DNA of 21,451 bases. Source: a virus. Every line of letters starts with the position of its first letter. The stretch's first letter is position 1. The notes below the pieces were generated by a model. That model was not told where the DNA came from and did no database searches. It was given only the letters and a program-made list of their open reading frames with translations. Shown here piece after piece: positions 6,008 to 21,451 of this stretch. The stretch covers positions 1-21,451 of the IMG/VR virus record IMGVR_UViG_3300035698_003237, one strand, 5' to 3'. A program made the position numbers and the translations under genes.

Positions 6008-6013
6008 ACTAGA

Positions 6014-6035
6014 TGGGGAGGGGAAACCCTCCCCA
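6014..6035 (+). promoter_or_regulatory. Strong RNA hairpin after the capsid gene block
   Basis: TGGGGAGGG (6014-6022) and CCCTCCCCA (6027-6035) are perfect complements, nine pairs closed by a GAAA tetraloop. No T-run follows, so it is not a standard intrinsic terminator. It ends 10 bases before the GGAG ribosome site of the next gene. Likely roles are protecting the 3' end of capsid mRNA, partial attenuation, or an RNase processing site. The in-frame ATG at 6013 begins inside it and is not the start of the downstream gene. Confidence 0.8.
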
Positions 6036-6054
6036 CTATCACTATGGAGCAAAG

Positions 6055-6693
6055 ATGAATACAGTAATAGTTACAGCCCCGACGGAGCAACCTGTAACAA
6101 CGGCTGAAGTTAAGAGCCATATAGGTATACCATCGGCAACAACTACATTCGATTCAGTGATTTCTGGTATGTATATACCAGCGGCGACGCTCCAGGCCGA
6201 GAACTATACAGCAAAGAAGTTCGTAGATCAAGTATGGGACGCGACCTGGGATGCTATACCTGGGCCGCCAGGATTCGTAGACGATATCAAGTGGACCATA
6301 GGTTGGCCTCTTGGTATATCACTACCTGGATATGGGTTCATCGAGTTACCATATTCTCCACTAGATTCTGTGTCTGGCGTGTATTATACAGATACGGACA
6401 ACACGGAAACTGAAGTTAGTGGTACGGTCTACACGACCGATACTAATTCTACACCTGGTCGCATATTGCTCAACAATGGACAATCATGGCCCACTGGATT
6501 ACGTGGATATGATTCGTTCAGGGTGCGATATACATGTGGATACGGTGCAGCAGTTGCAGTTCCAGCAGATATCAAACTTGCAATAATGACAATAGCAGCA
6601 GCATTCTTCGCACATAAGGGCATGTGTAGCGATGATGTTATACCTAAGACGGCGTACCGGATACTGAACAAGCGGAAGGTGGTAACACTATAA
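6055..6693 (+). CDS. Head-tail connector protein (gp6-like)
   Basis: Binds below the portal as the first ring of the neck. The N terminus, VTAPTEQPVTTAEVKSHIGI, then a helix with AAATLQAENYTAKKFV-like spacing, the central beta part around LPYSPLDSVSGVYYTD, and the C-terminal PADIKLAIMTIAAAFFAHKG helix match gp6-type connectors. I choose the ATG at 6055, preceded by GGAG at 6046-6049, giving 212 residues. The longer frame from 6013 would translate the hairpin and add an unlikely MGRGNPPHYHYGAK leader. The stop overlaps the next start by one base. Confidence 0.88.
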   Translation: MNTVIVTAPTEQPVTTAEVKSHIGIPSATTTFDSVISGMYIPAATLQAENYTAKKFVDQVWDATWDAIPGPPGFVDDIKWTIGWPLGISLPGYGFIELPYSPLDSVSGVYYTDTDNTETEVSGTVYTTDTNSTPGRILLNNGQSWPTGLRGYDSFRVRYTCGYGAAVAVPADIKLAIMTIAAAFFAHKGMCSDDVIPKTAYRILNKRKVVTL

Positions 6694-7031
6694 TGGCATG
6701 TAAGAATAGTATTTCAGTTCCCACTTTGATGCACTCGGTAGATATTGAGGCATATAGTAGTGGCCGAAGTGTCGGTGGTATATCATCTGGCACATGGACA
6801 GCCAGTAGTAGTGGTGTACAATGTGATATCAGGCCCATTGGTGGCGGCGAGATAGAACGTAATCAACACGAAGAACACTATACTACACATGAGATCACGA
6901 TGTGGTACGATGCAGATTTGAGTACCGCTAAGAGGATCAATTACAACGATAGAGTATTCAATATCAAGCGCATAATCACGGTACATGAAGGCAATATGCT
7001 ACAGATTCTGCGAGTGGAAGAGGTATTATAG
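6693..7031 (+). CDS. Head closure / head-tail adaptor protein
   Basis: A 112-residue protein in the standard position between connector and gp10-like protein. Its order of strands (DIEAYSSGRSVGGISSGTWT, GVQCDIRPIGGGEIERN, HEITMWYDADL, INYNDRVFNIKRIITV, NMLQILRVEEVL) fits the SPP1 gp16 / HK97 gp7 adaptor family, in which a compact beta barrel plugs the portal channel. The start TAATG shares an A with the connector stop, and the stop shares a G with the next GTG start, so translation is coupled throughout this block. Confidence 0.8.
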   Translation: MACKNSISVPTLMHSVDIEAYSSGRSVGGISSGTWTASSSGVQCDIRPIGGGEIERNQHEEHYTTHEITMWYDADLSTAKRINYNDRVFNIKRIITVHEGNMLQILRVEEVL

Positions 7032-7393
7032 TGTTATCATACAGCTTGACTGGCACCGAAACATTGACGAGGAAGATCAATGGAATGGACGCCCCATTAG
7101 TTAACGCACTATTGGCAGCGATAAATACGGGACTGAAGAAGGTACGCGATGATGCTAAGAGTTTAGCTCCAGTCGATACTGGCGAGTTAAGAGATAGCAT
7201 AGTGGTGATTAATGCCACGAAAACAGATAGTGGCGCAGTAGTGGCGAGGGCAGATCATGCATCATATGTTGAGTTTGGGACAACTAAGATGGCAGCACAG
7301 CCATTCTTATTCCCAGCACTAGAGTCGAATAAAGCGTATATCGAGAGAACGCTTAAATCCGATGGTAAAGTTGCTATAAGGAAGGCAGTCTAA
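7031..7393 (+). CDS. HK97 gp10-like tail completion / neck protein
   Basis: A 120-residue neck protein. The diagnostic family pattern is clear: a helix ending KKVRDDAKSLAPVDTGELRDSI, then a strand with ATKTDSGAVVARADHASYVEFGTTKMAAQPFLFPAL. This protein joins the head neck to the tail tube terminator. The start is GTG at 7031, with AGAGG at 7018-7022 as ribosome site; no ATG lies nearby in frame. It overlaps its neighbours by one base on each side. Confidence 0.9.
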   Translation: MLSYSLTGTETLTRKINGMDAPLVNALLAAINTGLKKVRDDAKSLAPVDTGELRDSIVVINATKTDSGAVVARADHASYVEFGTTKMAAQPFLFPALESNKAYIERTLKSDGKVAIRKAV

Positions 7394-8262
7394 TGGCTAA
7401 TTTAGTTACAAATCCTGGCTTCGAAACTGGCAATCTTACTGGGTGGACGATATATACTGGTGATGGGTCATTTGGTCACGGCTCACCACTTGCTAGTGCG
7501 TTAGCCGATTATAGTGGAATTTATGGACTAAAACATGAAGTATTTACAAACGCTACATCAGGTGATATCGGAACAAACCAGGCAGTATCTGGCTTATTAG
7601 CAGATCATCAATACGATATACGATGCGATATCCAGGCTACATCTAGCGTGGATGATACACTACGGCTGCAATACGATTATGTTGACGCCAGTGGCTCGCA
7701 TACGTTGTCGCTACAACCCACAGGGCTAAATGCGTGGGAGCGGTTAAGTACTACATTCATTACATCTGGTGCATATACCTCCGGGACAGTTAAGTTATAT
7801 GGCAATGGTGACATGTATGCAGATAATATCGTCATCGAGTATATCGGTGGCGAAGGTAGCCAGATGTTTCCGGTGCAATCAGGAATATGGGTGGCACTGG
7901 ATTCTGGCAGTCTAATAGTCGGTTCACTTCGCGTACCAGTATACGATGATGCGCCAGTTAATACTGGAGTATATCCATACATCACGATATCGGACTTTAC
8001 AGAGATACCGTGGGATACGTGCAATACAACTGGCAACGAAACTACCTGCACCATGCATGTATATAGCAGGGTCGCGGGATCATACGAGTGTAAGTCGATC
8101 ATAAGTGAAATACAATCAAGATTACACAGACAGAATATAGCAATCGGAACAACCGATACATTTGGAACACAAGTAGAATACAAACAAGTCGTACGAGACC
8201 CAGCAGATGTCGCTGTAACTCACGGAATCGTTAGGGTCAGGATAACCACAAAGGATAATTAA
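7393..8262 (+). CDS. Tail terminator (DUF3168-like) with N-terminal carbohydrate-binding module
   Basis: Two domains are visible in 289 residues. Residues 3-150 look like a CBM_4_9-type jelly roll: NLVTNPGFETGNLTGWTIY, then GLKHEVF, an AVSGLLADHQYDIRCDI strand pair, LNAWERLSTTF, and the closing MYADNIVIEYI. Residues 158-289 match tail-terminator proteins of the DUF3168 type: FPVQSGIWVALD, VPVYDDAPVNTGVYPYITI, a MHVYSRVAGSYECKSIISEI helix, and a final RVRITTKDN strand. Such terminators cap the tail tube and usually stand alone at roughly 110-140 residues, so the N-terminal half is an addition. Position between the gp10-like gene and the tail-tube genes agrees. Inference: the added module would be displayed around the neck. 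Domain assignments are by eye. Confidence 0.8.
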   Translation: MANLVTNPGFETGNLTGWTIYTGDGSFGHGSPLASALADYSGIYGLKHEVFTNATSGDIGTNQAVSGLLADHQYDIRCDIQATSSVDDTLRLQYDYVDASGSHTLSLQPTGLNAWERLSTTFITSGAYTSGTVKLYGNGDMYADNIVIEYIGGEGSQMFPVQSGIWVALDSGSLIVGSLRVPVYDDAPVNTGVYPYITISDFTEIPWDTCNTTGNETTCTMHVYSRVAGSYECKSIISEIQSRLHRQNIAIGTTDTFGTQVEYKQVVRDPADVAVTHGIVRVRITTKDN

Positions 8263-8263
8263 T

Positions 8264-8704
8264 ATGGCAGAGATTAATGGTTCTAACGTCACCCTTGCAG
8301 TGTCACAGAGTGGCACAGGGCACTTAGCTCTTTCTGGACTTAACGGTGCCGATATGAACTACAGTGCTGGTACTGTAGACATTACATCTACAGATGCTGC
8401 TGGTGATATAGAGAACATATTTGGTCAGCAATCATGGATAATGTCCGCAGATGGCATAGCAACTGCTGATCCATTTCCAACTCCTACTGCTGGTGTAGAT
8501 ATATCATGTTGGCAGGTGATTGAGAGTGGTATACAGCAACGCAAGGGTATATACGTACTACTCACCGATGGCTGGTCAACTACTTACAGTGGCGTAGTTA
8601 CGATATCGAGTTACGATACGTCGGCAGTCACCGATGGTACTGGTGCGCAAGAATGGTCACTACAGTTCGCCAATTCAGGCCAACTCACAATGGCAGGAGC
8701 CTAA
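8264..8704 (+). CDS. Tail tube protein, first copy
   Basis: A 146-residue protein, about the size of siphophage tube subunits, starting MAEINGSNVTLAVSQSGTGH and containing TVDITSTDAAGD, W-IMSADGIATAD, and a C-terminal WSLQFANSGQLTMAG strand. These features, and the place between the terminator and the tail chaperones, identify a TP901-1-like major tail protein. The downstream gene is a clear paralogue sharing the NG-NV start, the ID-T pattern, SADG-TAD and the C-terminal strand. AAAGGA at 8250-8255 is the ribosome site. Which copy builds most of the tube cannot be told from sequence. Confidence 0.85.
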   Translation: MAEINGSNVTLAVSQSGTGHLALSGLNGADMNYSAGTVDITSTDAAGDIENIFGQQSWIMSADGIATADPFPTPTAGVDISCWQVIESGIQQRKGIYVLLTDGWSTTYSGVVTISSYDTSAVTDGTGAQEWSLQFANSGQLTMAGA

Positions 8705-8707
8705 GAT

Positions 8708-9118
8708 ATGGCAGATTTAAATGGTATTAATGTTGCGGTGTATGTCTCGGCTTCAGCTGCTGGTGCCAACACTGCACTAGATGGTCAGAAGAATGGATCG
8801 TTATCGAGATCAACAAACGTAATCGATGTAACTACACGTAGTGATGCTGGTGTTACTGCCTCCGTCCACAACAACAACGGGTGGAATGTTAGTGCAGATG
8901 GCTCGTTTACTGCAGATAGTTATACAGGTGCAGGATACGCAATAGTTAGAGCAGCGATACTTGCACGTACCCCAGTTTGGGTTGTACTTAGTGGCGTTCA
9001 TGGTACTACGGCTTCGGGTCAATCTGTACCTACCGCATATAACATTTCAGCGTCGAAGGATAATTCGCTTGACTGGTCAATGGAGTTTGTGGGTTCAGGA
9101 GCGCTAACAATAGATTAA
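8708..9118 (+). CDS. Tail tube protein, second copy (paralogue)
   Basis: A 136-residue paralogue of the preceding gene, beginning MADLNGINVAVYVSASAAG and keeping NVIDVTTRSDAG, WNVSADGSFTAD and the C-terminal DWSMEFVGSGALTID. It lacks the longer middle loop of the first copy (the segment around PFPTPTAGVDISC). AGGAG at 8695-8699, inside the end of the first copy, is its ribosome site, so both are translated from one message. It may be the main tube subunit, a minor ring, or a decorated variant. A strong hairpin follows at 9127-9150, as after the capsid block. Confidence 0.83.
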   Translation: MADLNGINVAVYVSASAAGANTALDGQKNGSLSRSTNVIDVTTRSDAGVTASVHNNNGWNVSADGSFTADSYTGAGYAIVRAAILARTPVWVVLSGVHGTTASGQSVPTAYNISASKDNSLDWSMEFVGSGALTID

Positions 9119-12711: not shown

Positions 12712-15177
12712 ATGGCTACTAAATATAGAATTAGATTAGATACCGCAGATACAGATGTTGATAGAAGCGAATATATAATGCCTGGTTCGTTGATAGCTGA
12801 TAAGTCAATAGATGGTAGATCAGTTGCTAAATTTAGCATGATTGGTCCATACACTACACTGCAGCCTGAATTGCTACCTGGAATGAGTATGGCATTAGAT
12901 TTCCCTTATAATCCCAGTGATACCACGTACGCTGAATATTTTGCGGGTGAAATAGATGATGTAACTGAAATAGATCTAGCTCCAGGAAATACATCAACTA
13001 TGGTGCAGTACGATGTTGTATGTACATCGTGGGCAGCAATATGCGACAGGAAATATACATCGGTTAGATGGAAAGATCTTACAGTATCTGGAATACTGGC
13101 AGATATATTAACTACTGCACTATCTGGCGAAGGATTTAGTATAGGTGCTATATCAGCTGTGCTGTATGCAACTACGCTGGATGTAGTGGATGGAATATAC
13201 ACTGCAGTTAGTACCTCATTAGATGATATAAGTACGCAAACTGGAGCTTATTGGTGGATTGGTGCAGATCGCACCATAAATATGAGTACACGAGCTAATG
13301 GTACTGTAGTGAACCGCAATATGGTTACTACAAATCCTGGATTTGAAGATGGTCTTACTGACTGGGAAGACATCGGTGGTACATTTGACGACGAGGCAGT
13401 GCAAACAGCGGTCAAATACGAAGGCACTCATGCCTATTATGCAATTGGATTACAAGGCAATTCCGGCAGACGTAGATACGTATCTGTAGTATCTGGAGAG
13501 ACTTACACGTTTTCCGCCTATGGATATGGTAGCGATGGTAGCGACGCACATATACAGGTCGTACACGATGGAGTAACTTATAACGAGTATCTATCCGCTG
13601 GTGATTCATGGAATCGATATTCGATTACATTTACCGCTACCGATAGTGCCGAAGTAGCTGGACTGTATATCATTGCAGGTGAAGACACTATATATGCAGA
13701 CGCTGTAATGCTACAGCGTGGACAATGGTTAAGTGACTATAGAGCTACTGGCGGAGTACCTGGCGGGATAAGTAACTTAAGTGTTAACCGAAATAGATCA
13801 GAGTACCGAAACAAGCAATATATTGTTGGTAAGACAACAATGAACGATAAGATAGATGGCAACGGATGGCAACGGACATTTCCACTAACTGGGCGTCCAC
13901 TGGCTACCCAAGACGTGCAGTTTCGACCATCTGGGTCTGGCGATATGCAAGTCAGAAATGTATCAACAAATACAGCTGATCAGGTACACACTACACTAGC
14001 TAGTGGAGTTGGTGTTGGTTTTGGTCAACCAGCTGGTAGTGCCGAGCGAGTAGAGCTATACTCTTCGGAGAGTGCAGATAGTGGAATAAATGTTGAGATT
14101 ATTGGATATAGTATTGCCGATAATGATATCAATTCCGAGATACTAACTACCAATGCAGCAGATGGAACGACATCAGTTTACTCAACTGGATATTTCGACA
14201 ATCTCATGGCGTTCAAAGTTACTGGTGCTGTGGAGGCAGTAGGTACTCTTACTCTTAATACATATCCAGAGGTCACTGAGATAGTAGTAATACCAATCCC
14301 GGAAGGTATCCCGGACGAAGACAAGGTAGGTGTATTGACTGTAGCTGTAGATCCATTCTATATTGCGCCAGAGGCGATAAGCCTACAGACCGCAGAGAGT
14401 GGCTATATTGGTATATCTGGAGACCCAATGGTATCTGGTGCACCCAGTCGTAGAGTTGCGAAACTATATGGTGATGCTGGTAGGATACTATTTAACGATG
14501 AGCTGGATATCGGAGCCAACCCATACATGGAAAACATTTATGAGGTCTATGTTGGTGATATAGCTGCAACTAGTACAGTGGTGGTGGACCGACAGGATGA
14601 ATGGGTTTGGGAATATGGTAATGATGTAATCCATCAAAATAGCGGTCAACTAACATTCGAAGGCTTGGGTGAATTTAACCTATGCAAATTAATAGATTCA
14701 GGTGAATCTATATCGGTTAATTACACTGGTTTGGCATATCCATTAGTAACTGTAACGGATGCTACTGAGGTGACGGCAAGGGCAGCAGATAGTTCTGGGA
14801 CAACTGGGATATACTCAAACTTATGGTTTTCATCACCCACCGAAATCAAAAATACAACCGAGGCGCGAGCTATTGGTAATAATTTAATTGAGGCATATAC
14901 CAGAGATGGTCCAACTTCGTATTTTCCGCGAGTGGATATGTCACTAAATGTATATCAAAGTGGGTTGGAAATCGGTTATCTGGTTACAGATTCGTTCCCG
15001 AAGCATGGTATAACCGATCAACAATACATGGTTACTCGGACTAGCATTCGAGACTACGGGACAAATGAACTTGATAGATCCGTTAACTTTGTCATGCAAG
15101 TGGACCTAACAAACACCAAATCAATAGGTAACTGGGAAAAGTACTGGCGAAATATAGCCAAAGTAGGTTTGAAATAA
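12712..15177 (+). CDS. Tail hub / tail tip protein with inserted carbohydrate-binding module
   Basis: An 821-residue protein directly after the tape measure. Residues 1-195 resemble phage baseplate hub N-terminal domains (YRIRLDTADTDVDRSEYI, YFAGEIDDVTEIDL, YDVVCTSWAAICDRKYT, and STQTGAYWWIGADRTINM). Residues 203-348 form a CBM_4_9-like module: NMVTTNPGFEDGLTDWED, KYEGTHAYYAI, VSVVSGETYTFSAY, SWNRYSITFTA, and the closing IYADAVMLQRGQW. The hub fold resumes with ISNLSVNRNRSEYRNKQYI and ends in a long beta-rich part (GLEIGYLVTDSFPK, QQYMVTRTSIRDYG). Function as tail tip and possibly receptor or glycan binder is inferred. AGGGGAG upstream gives the ribosome site; the start directly abuts the tape measure stop. 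No peptidase motif was recognised. Confidence 0.82.
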   Translation: MATKYRIRLDTADTDVDRSEYIMPGSLIADKSIDGRSVAKFSMIGPYTTLQPELLPGMSMALDFPYNPSDTTYAEYFAGEIDDVTEIDLAPGNTSTMVQYDVVCTSWAAICDRKYTSVRWKDLTVSGILADILTTALSGEGFSIGAISAVLYATTLDVVDGIYTAVSTSLDDISTQTGAYWWIGADRTINMSTRANGTVVNRNMVTTNPGFEDGLTDWEDIGGTFDDEAVQTAVKYEGTHAYYAIGLQGNSGRRRYVSVVSGETYTFSAYGYGSDGSDAHIQVVHDGVTYNEYLSAGDSWNRYSITFTATDSAEVAGLYIIAGEDTIYADAVMLQRGQWLSDYRATGGVPGGISNLSVNRNRSEYRNKQYIVGKTTMNDKIDGNGWQRTFPLTGRPLATQDVQFRPSGSGDMQVRNVSTNTADQVHTTLASGVGVGFGQPAGSAERVELYSSESADSGINVEIIGYSIADNDINSEILTTNAADGTTSVYSTGYFDNLMAFKVTGAVEAVGTLTLNTYPEVTEIVVIPIPEGIPDEDKVGVLTVAVDPFYIAPEAISLQTAESGYIGISGDPMVSGAPSRRVAKLYGDAGRILFNDELDIGANPYMENIYEVYVGDIAATSTVVVDRQDEWVWEYGNDVIHQNSGQLTFEGLGEFNLCKLIDSGESISVNYTGLAYPLVTVTDATEVTARAADSSGTTGIYSNLWFSSPTEIKNTTEARAIGNNLIEAYTRDGPTSYFPRVDMSLNVYQSGLEIGYLVTDSFPKHGITDQQYMVTRTSIRDYGTNELDRSVNFVMQVDLTNTKSIGNWEKYWRNIAKVGLK

Positions 15178-15237: not shown

Positions 15238-15621
15238 ATGTCACAAGCTGATCTAAACGTAATTGCACCATTCACTTCCGGCTCCGTTGAAGTTAAAGTC
15301 GTGATGGGAGTGTATGGCAACGCTAATCATGGCGCTATCGCAGTCACCTCTGGTGATGCTGGCGCTGTTGAGATATCTGTAGCATCTGGACAACTTGGTG
15401 GTTCTAACTTTGGGATCGAACTCAAGATGGAAACTACCGATGCATATCTCAAGTTTGCTTCGTCCGGTGATGCCGTATCTCCCGCGTCTGGTGATATACT
15501 ATTCGCCCGTGGAGATGGTTGGAAATACTTCCCCTATGGGGACACTACGAGAATAAGTCTAATATCTACCGGCGCTGGCGTCAGTGGCTGGTGTCACTAT
15601 ATCGAATACCCAGGAGCGTAG
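15238..15621 (+). CDS. Small tail-associated protein of unknown function
   Basis: A 127-residue protein with no recognised family. It is Gly/Ala/Val/Ser-rich and beta-patterned (SGSVEVKVVMGVYGNANHGAI, ISVASGQLGGSNFGIELKM, DAYLKFASSGDAVSPASGDI), lacks signal peptide and membrane segments, and ends SGWCHYIEYPG. It follows the hub gene after a 60-base gap and has AAAAGG at 15225-15230. The position between hub and lectin suggests a tail-tip or fibre component. The CAGGAG of the next gene lies in its last codons, so the two are co-translated. Confidence 0.65.
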   Translation: MSQADLNVIAPFTSGSVEVKVVMGVYGNANHGAIAVTSGDAGAVEISVASGQLGGSNFGIELKMETTDAYLKFASSGDAVSPASGDILFARGDGWKYFPYGDTTRISLISTGAGVSGWCHYIEYPGA

Positions 15622-15622
15622 A

Positions 15623-16405
15623 ATGCGAAAAGCAATGGGAATCGGAATACATACCGGACTGTACTCGTTGTCAACTGGATTTGGTAGTCGTGGTATTCCA
15701 TTCTACGGACTGTCGTTCGATGGTGACGACTATGCATCCGCCGCTGATGCGATAACAGGCGACGAGTTCGATCTCGGGACTGGTCCGTGGGCAGTGACGG
15801 CATGGGTTAAACTGGTAGCAGATGCGGCTGATGGCTATCAAGCCATCATCTCAAATGGCACTGGTTCTACCTCCTTTCGTATCTACATCAAAGTCGCGGC
15901 TGGCGTATGCCACGTTTCAACGCATACGAATGAAGGTGCCCCGGTACTCGACGAATCCACGACTACATGGGCACGCGGCGCATGGGCGTACATAGGGTGG
16001 ATTCTCGACGCCGACGGTGGCACCTGTCGGCATTACATCAATGGTGTGGCCGATGCCACTACGGCGGACTTCTCGGCTCTGAGCACTGTTACAAACTCCG
16101 ACGCCAAGTTCATCGGCACCTACAACACTACACCACAAAGCCCGTTTGCTGGCGAGATAGTCGACCTCCGGGTTTGGAAAGCGTCCACATTAAGCGCTCC
16201 CAATGTCGCAGCCGAGTTCGCGAACACTAGTCCATACACGTATCCCACGACTGTTCCAACATGGCACGGCATCGTCGGAGATGCACCGGGGTCGTCGTCA
16301 ATCAGACCCGATACTGGCATATCAGTGTTCACTTACGCTGCTGGTGCAGCAGCTCCGACGCCTACGGGTCCATATACTTCACTATCATCAGGGGGACCAG
16401 TATAA
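15623..16405 (+). CDS. LamG / concanavalin-like lectin tail protein
   Basis: A 260-residue protein. Residues 30-200 read as a LamG-like jelly roll: LSFDGDDYASAADA, FDLGTGPWAVTAWVKL, YQAIISNGTGSTSFRIYI, WAYIGWILDADGGTCRHYINGV, AKFIGTYNT, FAGEIVDLRVWKASTLS. Such domains bind sugars and are frequent in phage fibres and tail tips. The rest is Pro/Thr/Gly-rich, perhaps a linker or attachment segment. I choose the ATG at 15623 with AGGAG at 15612-15616; an earlier in-frame GTG at 15584 overlaps the upstream gene. GC is visibly higher than in neighbours (39 of 60 at 15961-16020 against 25 of 60 at 14461-14520), hinting at recent acquisition. Receptor binding is inferred. Confidence 0.78.
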   Translation: MRKAMGIGIHTGLYSLSTGFGSRGIPFYGLSFDGDDYASAADAITGDEFDLGTGPWAVTAWVKLVADAADGYQAIISNGTGSTSFRIYIKVAAGVCHVSTHTNEGAPVLDESTTTWARGAWAYIGWILDADGGTCRHYINGVADATTADFSALSTVTNSDAKFIGTYNTTPQSPFAGEIVDLRVWKASTLSAPNVAAEFANTSPYTYPTTVPTWHGIVGDAPGSSSIRPDTGISVFTYAAGAAAPTPTGPYTSLSSGGPV

Positions 16406-20988: not shown

Positions 20989-21451
20989 ATGAATACTAGC
21001 ATGGAGCGTCGTAGATTCACTGGTGAATTCTACACGCCAATTAGATTCGTAGAGCTGGCGCATAAGTATGCGGCGAAACACTGGGGCAATCTAGATCAAT
21101 ATAGTTTCTATGATCCGGCATCAGGTACCGGGAATTTAATATTCCCGTTAACTAAGTATGATAAGGTATTCATGTCGACGCTGGAACCTGAAGATATTAA
21201 TTATATAAATAGCTCTAATGTATTTCCTGGCGCGGTAGCCTGGCAGGAAGACTTTTTAAATACACTTAAAGTTAAGGCTGATCTGGCCATGGCACTAAAA
21301 GACAAATCACGTAAATGGGTATTCATAATGAATCCACCATTTGCTGCTGGTACTGATATGTCAAGTTTAGCTGGCGTAGGTAAAGAAAAAACAGGTGTCG
21401 CTACCAATGATATCAGGGACATCATGGCTACTAAAACACTCGGGCATGCCA
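20989..21451 (+). CDS. DNA N6-adenine methyltransferase, N-terminal part (cut by right edge)
   Basis: The frame opens at ATG 20989 with AGGAG at 20978-20982 and runs to the window end (154 codons). It shows the amino-methyltransferase order of motifs: motif X GEFYTPIRFVELA near residues 12-24, motif I YDPASGTGNLIF (SAM binding), an acidic EPED loop, and motif IV NPPF (catalytic, N6-adenine or N4-cytosine class). The later segment GVATNDIRDIMATKTLGHA is typical of phage N6 methyltransferases with this start. An ATG at 20985 in another frame stops after four codons. The protein probably modifies phage DNA against host restriction. Target-recognition sequence is not visible. The gene may resume at the left edge (bases 1-218). 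Confidence 0.88.
   Translation, partial: MNTSMERRRFTGEFYTPIRFVELAHKYAAKHWGNLDQYSFYDPASGTGNLIFPLTKYDKVFMSTLEPEDINYINSSNVFPGAVAWQEDFLNTLKVKADLAMALKDKSRKWVFIMNPPFAAGTDMSSLAGVGKEKTGVATNDIRDIMATKTLGHA

Follow-up and report, generated by a model that had tools for sequence, protein, structure and literature searches.

A phage tail terminator joined to an N-terminal domain of the CBM_4_9 carbohydrate-binding type

Gene organization of the neck region

The window, i.e. the whole 21,451-nt stretch of viral DNA analysed here (IMG/VR record IMGVR_UViG_3300035698_003237), shows the canonical order of neck and tail genes, in which an adaptor, a stopper and a gp10-like protein are followed by a CBM-terminator fusion and two major tail proteins (Table 1). 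The fusion ORF starts with an ATG located 7 nt downstream of a GGAAGG motif, and this ATG overlaps the stop codon of the upstream gene as TAATG. No other terminator gene was found when the window was scanned. The fusion gene encodes the only tail terminator of the phage, N-terminally joined to a jelly-roll of CBM16/CBM4 type. The GC content is 0.44 in both the CBM and the terminator part, and no clear foreign signature was seen in that of the CBM part.

Table 1. Location of the genes, domains and sites discussed in the text (window coordinates).
Feature	Position	Strand	Assignment
Head-tail adaptor	6013..6693	+	PHROG_442
Head closure / stopper protein	6693..7031	+	PF05521, PHROG_25
HK97-gp10-like tail completion/Neck1 protein, immediate upstream neighbour of the fusion	7031..7393	+	PF04883, PHROG_5
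CBM-tail terminator fusion gene, 289 aa	7393..8262	+	ORF with good ribosome site; architecture repeated at L105:7536-8396
N-terminal CBM_4_9 / CBM16-like jelly-roll, residues 1-151	7393..7845	+	PF02018; AlphaFold2 beta-sandwich; Foldseek 2zex
Short linker GGEGSQ, residues 152-157	7846..7863	+	Gap in the model between CBM strand 141-150 and helix 158-170
In-frame ATG, Met158	7864..7866	+	Aligns with start codons of unfused terminators; possible relic or internal start
Tail terminator domain, residues 158-289	7864..8259	+	PF11367 / PHROG_176 profiles; folds 6tba, 9j1j
Major tail (tube) protein 1, immediate downstream neighbour of the fusion	8264..8704	+	PF06199, PHROG_1407
Major tail (tube) protein 2, paralogue of protein 1	8708..9118	+	PF06199, PHROG_1407
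Second CBM_4_9, residues 206-323 of an 821-aa tail protein	13318..13746	+	PF02018, E 1.9e-9
Tail-region protein, concanavalin-like Laminin_G_3	15584..16405	+	PF13385, E 4e-15; PHROG_3475 minor tail protein, E 1.3e-4

Domain structure of the fusion protein

Pfam assigns residues 2-136 to CBM_4_9 (PF02018; 33.1 bits, E 8e-8, gathering cut-off 25.9 bits) and residues 177-286 to Tail_completion_gp17 (PF11367, the family once named DUF3168; 47 bits, E 3e-12, cut-off 24.5 bits). The protein also matches the PHROG_176 tail terminator (E 6.5e-18). In sequence-profile comparisons, the terminator part was related to SPP1 gp17 (5a20, 2lfp; E 7e-20) and to RcGTA Rcc01690 (E 3e-8), and the CBM part to CBM16 and to a porphyran-binding CBM.

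A full-length model of the protein was calculated with AlphaFold2 using 21 sequences. It contains a beta-sandwich between about residues 49 and 150 and the terminator fold from helix 158-170 onward. The pLDDT is 80-94 over most of residues 191-289 and about 30-35 for residues 1-48. When the model was compared to the PDB using Foldseek, the C-terminal half (158-289) matched the RcGTA terminator (6tba; E 1.1e-6, target TM 0.70), as well as the monocin cap (9j1j) and Listeria AgB (4acv), and the N-terminal half matched the CBM16 structures 2zew and 2zez. For the CBM model (pLDDT 66), the top match was CBM16 2zex (E 1.3e-5), with a TM value of only about 0.45 because the N-terminal third is poorly modelled. 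Across profile and fold searches, the relatives of this domain are CBM16 (2zex/2zez), the porphyran-binding CBM 8xmz and CBM4. Profile, fold and gene position all agree that the C-terminal domain is a member of the terminator family. The N-terminal domain is of CBM_4_9 (CBM4/9/16/22) type, as judged from its profile and its predicted jelly-roll fold. The first-pass annotation of this locus had proposed that about 150 residues of jelly-roll precede the terminator in one chain. Profile matches, fold comparison and the recurrence in a second phage (see below) bear this out: in the model the CBM occupies residues 1-151 and the helix starting at residue 158 opens the terminator fold. The prediction does not show a single non-CBM fold.

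The best fold and profile relatives of the N-terminal domain are the CBM16 modules of an S-layer associated multidomain endoglucanase/mannanase (PDB 2zew-2zez, 3oea, 3oeb), with which it shares an NPGFE motif near the N-terminus and a core Trp and Asp. The core motif N7, F10, E11, W18 and D144 is conserved. The ligand-contact residues of CBM16 (W20, Q81, Q93 and W125) are less easily traced. An aromatic residue, Y21, stands at the position of W20 in both phages; W125 lies opposite a gap, and Q81 and Q93 have no clear alignment. The CBM16 modules belong to bacterial glycoside hydrolases, and most of their ligand contacts could not be matched confidently in the fusion CBM.

The fusion recurs in a second phage

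A contig from a second phage (IMGVR_UViG_3300035698_003419; L105, L107 and L110, hereafter L105), whose terminase is 71% identical to that of the window, encodes a 286-aa CBM-terminator fusion within the same gene order. Its CBM_4_9 match (27.4 bits) and its PF11367 match are both above the Pfam cut-offs. The two fusion proteins are 61% identical overall and differ by substitutions and by indels that are all in-frame; the length of the linker is unequal. Identity reaches 79% in the terminator domain and 45% in the CBM, where it falls from 95% over residues 1-19 to 38% past residue 19. For the neighbouring genes the values are 80% (adaptor), 75% (stopper) and 58% (gp10-like). In both parts of the fusion gene pS, although near saturation, exceeds pN, which indicates that CBM and terminator are both translated and under selection. 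The contrast between a CBM at 38% past residue 19 and a terminator at 79% fits a host-facing module. However, tail genes elsewhere also diverge strongly (25-43% identity), so fast divergence of the CBM alone is no proof of host contact.

A more distant contig, L182, has the same gene order, an adaptor 30% identical to that of the window and a free 141-aa terminator. Since this terminator is free, the CBM would most simply have been gained in the lineage shared by the window phage and L105.

Survey of tail terminators

The survey covered 127 terminator ORFs, including a few copies of the window and L105 genes. They came from named phages, from viral contigs and from 786 drawn bacterial genomes (Alphaproteobacteria and Pseudomonadota). 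The genome draw represents one phylum, and the ORFs read from it were the top-scoring ones and any with a long open frame. A CBM was carried by the terminators of the window and L105 only: none of the about 120 others matched the CBM profile, by which CBM presence was judged and which would miss distant fusions. The terminators of about 20 named phages with related proteins appear free. Upstream open-frame extensions were present in about 25 bacterial-genome terminators; all were rejected as fusions because they gave no match to the CBM profile and consisted of Arg/Ala-rich out-of-frame sequence, as is typical of readthrough in GC-rich genomes. Terminator alignments were too diverse for a pattern search. 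The fusion protein used as a direct query gave no match among viral contigs and genome contigs. N-terminal modules of the form MxNLxxNP[GS]FE were found in seven viral contigs, one of them that of L105; in the remaining six the module belongs to tail-like or enzyme-like proteins and never to terminators. Within this sample, the search for further DUF3168 proteins with an N-terminal CBM, called for in the first-pass annotation, returned the L105 contig alone.

Comparison of the two-domain model with BFVD using Foldseek gave alignments of 358 columns to a protein of Leptospira phage LE4 and of 257 columns to A0A516M9I3, a 281-aa BFVD model. The LE4 protein (385 aa; L115, MF974397:18056-19213) is encoded directly before a putative tail sheath gene. 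The alignments suggest that in both proteins a terminator-like fold comes after a beta-sandwich, as in the model of the fusion. Sequence comparisons of the LE4 protein gave no support for a CBM-terminator architecture, and we retain it as a lead, not as a second case; A0A516M9I3 is likewise a lead only.

A putative glycan-binding collar at the neck

Host binding is usually credited to the tail tip. Tail terminators are hexameric and sit on the last ring of the tail tube, and both main helices of the R4C terminator are peripheral (PMC11784142, PMC10276861). As the family is known to form hexamers, we infer that six copies of the fusion protein would encircle the neck, in a ring closing the tail tube and docking to the head. 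Each CBM would be tied to the N-terminal helix of its terminator by the six-residue linker. Given this linker and the peripheral helices of R4C, which would place the N-terminal helix at the ring rim, the simplest picture is that of six CBMs projecting outward as a collar around the neck. The collar CBMs would add weak, multivalent binding to glycans, the likeliest target being a host-surface or capsule polysaccharide; together with the CBM and LamG domains of the tail-tip region, they would make productive adsorption more likely. We favour this reading as a reasonably probable one. A point against it comes from T5, whose terminator is rendered monomeric by an N-terminal His-tag, which is not the case with a C-terminal tag (PMC11784142); thus an N-terminal domain might hinder ring formation. 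Glycan binding and host adhesion by the fusion CBM are plausible by analogy with the neck CBMs of lactococcal 936 phages (PMC6669499); the adhesion to mucus suggested at first pass is not supported. If the terminator also served as a glycan-binding collar, adhesion would take place at the head-tail junction without a dedicated fibre. Such an arrangement would also imply that the ring copes with an N-terminal load of about 16 kDa, and would offer a simple anchor for the display of a domain at a defined six-fold site.

The neck as such is a known location for carbohydrate-binding modules. In lactococcal siphophages of the 936 group, CBMs are present on neck passage structures (NPS), on Dits and on major tail proteins, and CBMs of the neck and of the tail attach to host cells when fused to GFP (Hayes et al. 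2019, PMC6669499). The proposal that the neck is an unusual place for glycan binding therefore stands for the terminator itself, with no case among the about 120 others, but not for the neck in general. The likeness to the NPS lies in the many CBM copies at the neck, which for the fusion phage are predicted, and in the distribution of CBMs over several places of the virion, the window phage likewise having several candidate binding domains. In the NPS, however, a separate collar protein of 500-900 aa, BppU-like at its N-terminus, extends into long coiled-coil fibres that bear the neck CBM at their end, whereas the window chain consists of CBM and terminator domains only, with the CBM directly on the terminator and no fibre. 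The fusion may work like a neck passage structure protein of the 936/P335 type, yet is not one. In evolved Dit and MTP proteins a CBM is inserted in the distal or major tail protein; here the scaffold is the terminator instead. SPP1 gp17 and RcGTA Rcc01690 share the fold, the slot between gp10-like and major tail protein genes and the predicted ring role, but are free proteins of about 134 aa without a CBM. CBM-decorated virions are thus known; the new element is the terminator as CBM scaffold, and we found no published example of a CBM joined to a tail completion protein or terminator in the literature searched. It is possible, though we put this forward tentatively, that the terminator ring is a recurrent adhesin chassis, with independent N-terminal beta-sandwich fusions in unrelated phages (window/L105, perhaps LE4 and A0A516M9I3) giving rise to six-fold glycan-binding neck collars.

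Alternative roles of the N-terminal domain

The jelly-roll might bind no sugar and act as a structural decoration that stabilises the neck or touches the capsid vertex. Many virion decorations are jelly-roll or Ig-like, the CBM_4_9 assignment is a sequence-family call, the CBM16 contact residues are recognisable only in part, and N-terminal modules with NPGFE or NPSFE are also found in unrelated viral proteins, both virion and enzyme-like ones. However, a module packed against the neck should co-evolve with it, whereas the CBM past residue 19 has diverged far beyond the adaptor, stopper and terminator (75-80% identity); in addition, its nearest folds are sugar-binding modules. We regard a purely structural role as rather unlikely.

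The ring could also be mixed, with Met158 serving as an internal start for a free terminator and the fused form as a minority decoration. Met158 coincides with the starts of free terminators, and it is preceded at 7 nt by GAAGG, whose duplex energy (-6.2 kcal/mol) is close to that of real starts. However, 10 of the 122 internal ATGs of the window have a site equal to or stronger than this one, and the corresponding residue of L105 is Leu. No in-frame ATG, GTG or TTG is present near the terminator start of L105, the closest being a GTG within the CBM. The fused form must therefore be used in L105, and its ring must tolerate the CBM unless the latter is cleaved off. These findings make a mixed ring improbable and lead us to read Met158 as what may be a relic of the ancestral terminator start codon.

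The CBM might instead be a transient assembly or solubility tag, either cleaved off or remaining outside the mature virion. The T5 terminator is soluble as well as monomeric with its N-terminal tag (PMC11784142), so the timing of ring assembly could be set by removal of an N-terminal domain, and the linker is poorly conserved. Yet no protease site was recognised and the CBM sequence, though divergent, is under selection, which leaves such processing very improbable. Finally, although free terminators are the rule, the suggestion that a sequencing frameshift joined two genes can be set aside with near certainty, since a single fused ORF with in-frame indels recurs in the independent L105 contig and neither a ribosome site nor a stop codon placed as for a separate CBM gene was seen.

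Other features of the genome

Tandem major tail paralogues are also present in L105 (8398-8802 and 8818-9237). Both proteins may contribute to the tube, or one of them may be specialised. The second CBM_4_9 of the window belongs to the 821-aa product of ORF 12712-15177, located after the tape measure gene. It is 63% identical to its counterpart in L107 and its flanks are 44% and 37% identical, a trend opposite to that of the neck CBM. The Laminin_G_3 protein (273 aa), a further candidate binding protein, has a GTG start overlapping ORF 15238-15621. This latter ORF (127 aa) has no Pfam or PHROG match and shows the highest conservation among the genes compared between the two phages (85%), amid strongly diverged tail genes. 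ORF 1630-2316 (228 aa) occupies an unusual position between terminase and portal; it has no convincing Pfam match and is 50% identical in L105.

The terminase of L116, a 14-kb contig of an Alphaproteobacteria MAG, is 47% identical to that of the window, and the binning of this contig with an alphaproteobacterium gives a weak hint as to the host group of the window phage. Contig L089 (1-1255) joins homologues of the last (20989-21450) and first (1-218) genes of the window, with about 0.9 kb between them. The window thus probably represents most of a circularly permuted genome of about 22.4 kb and is nearly complete; this size is small for a siphophage-type gene set.
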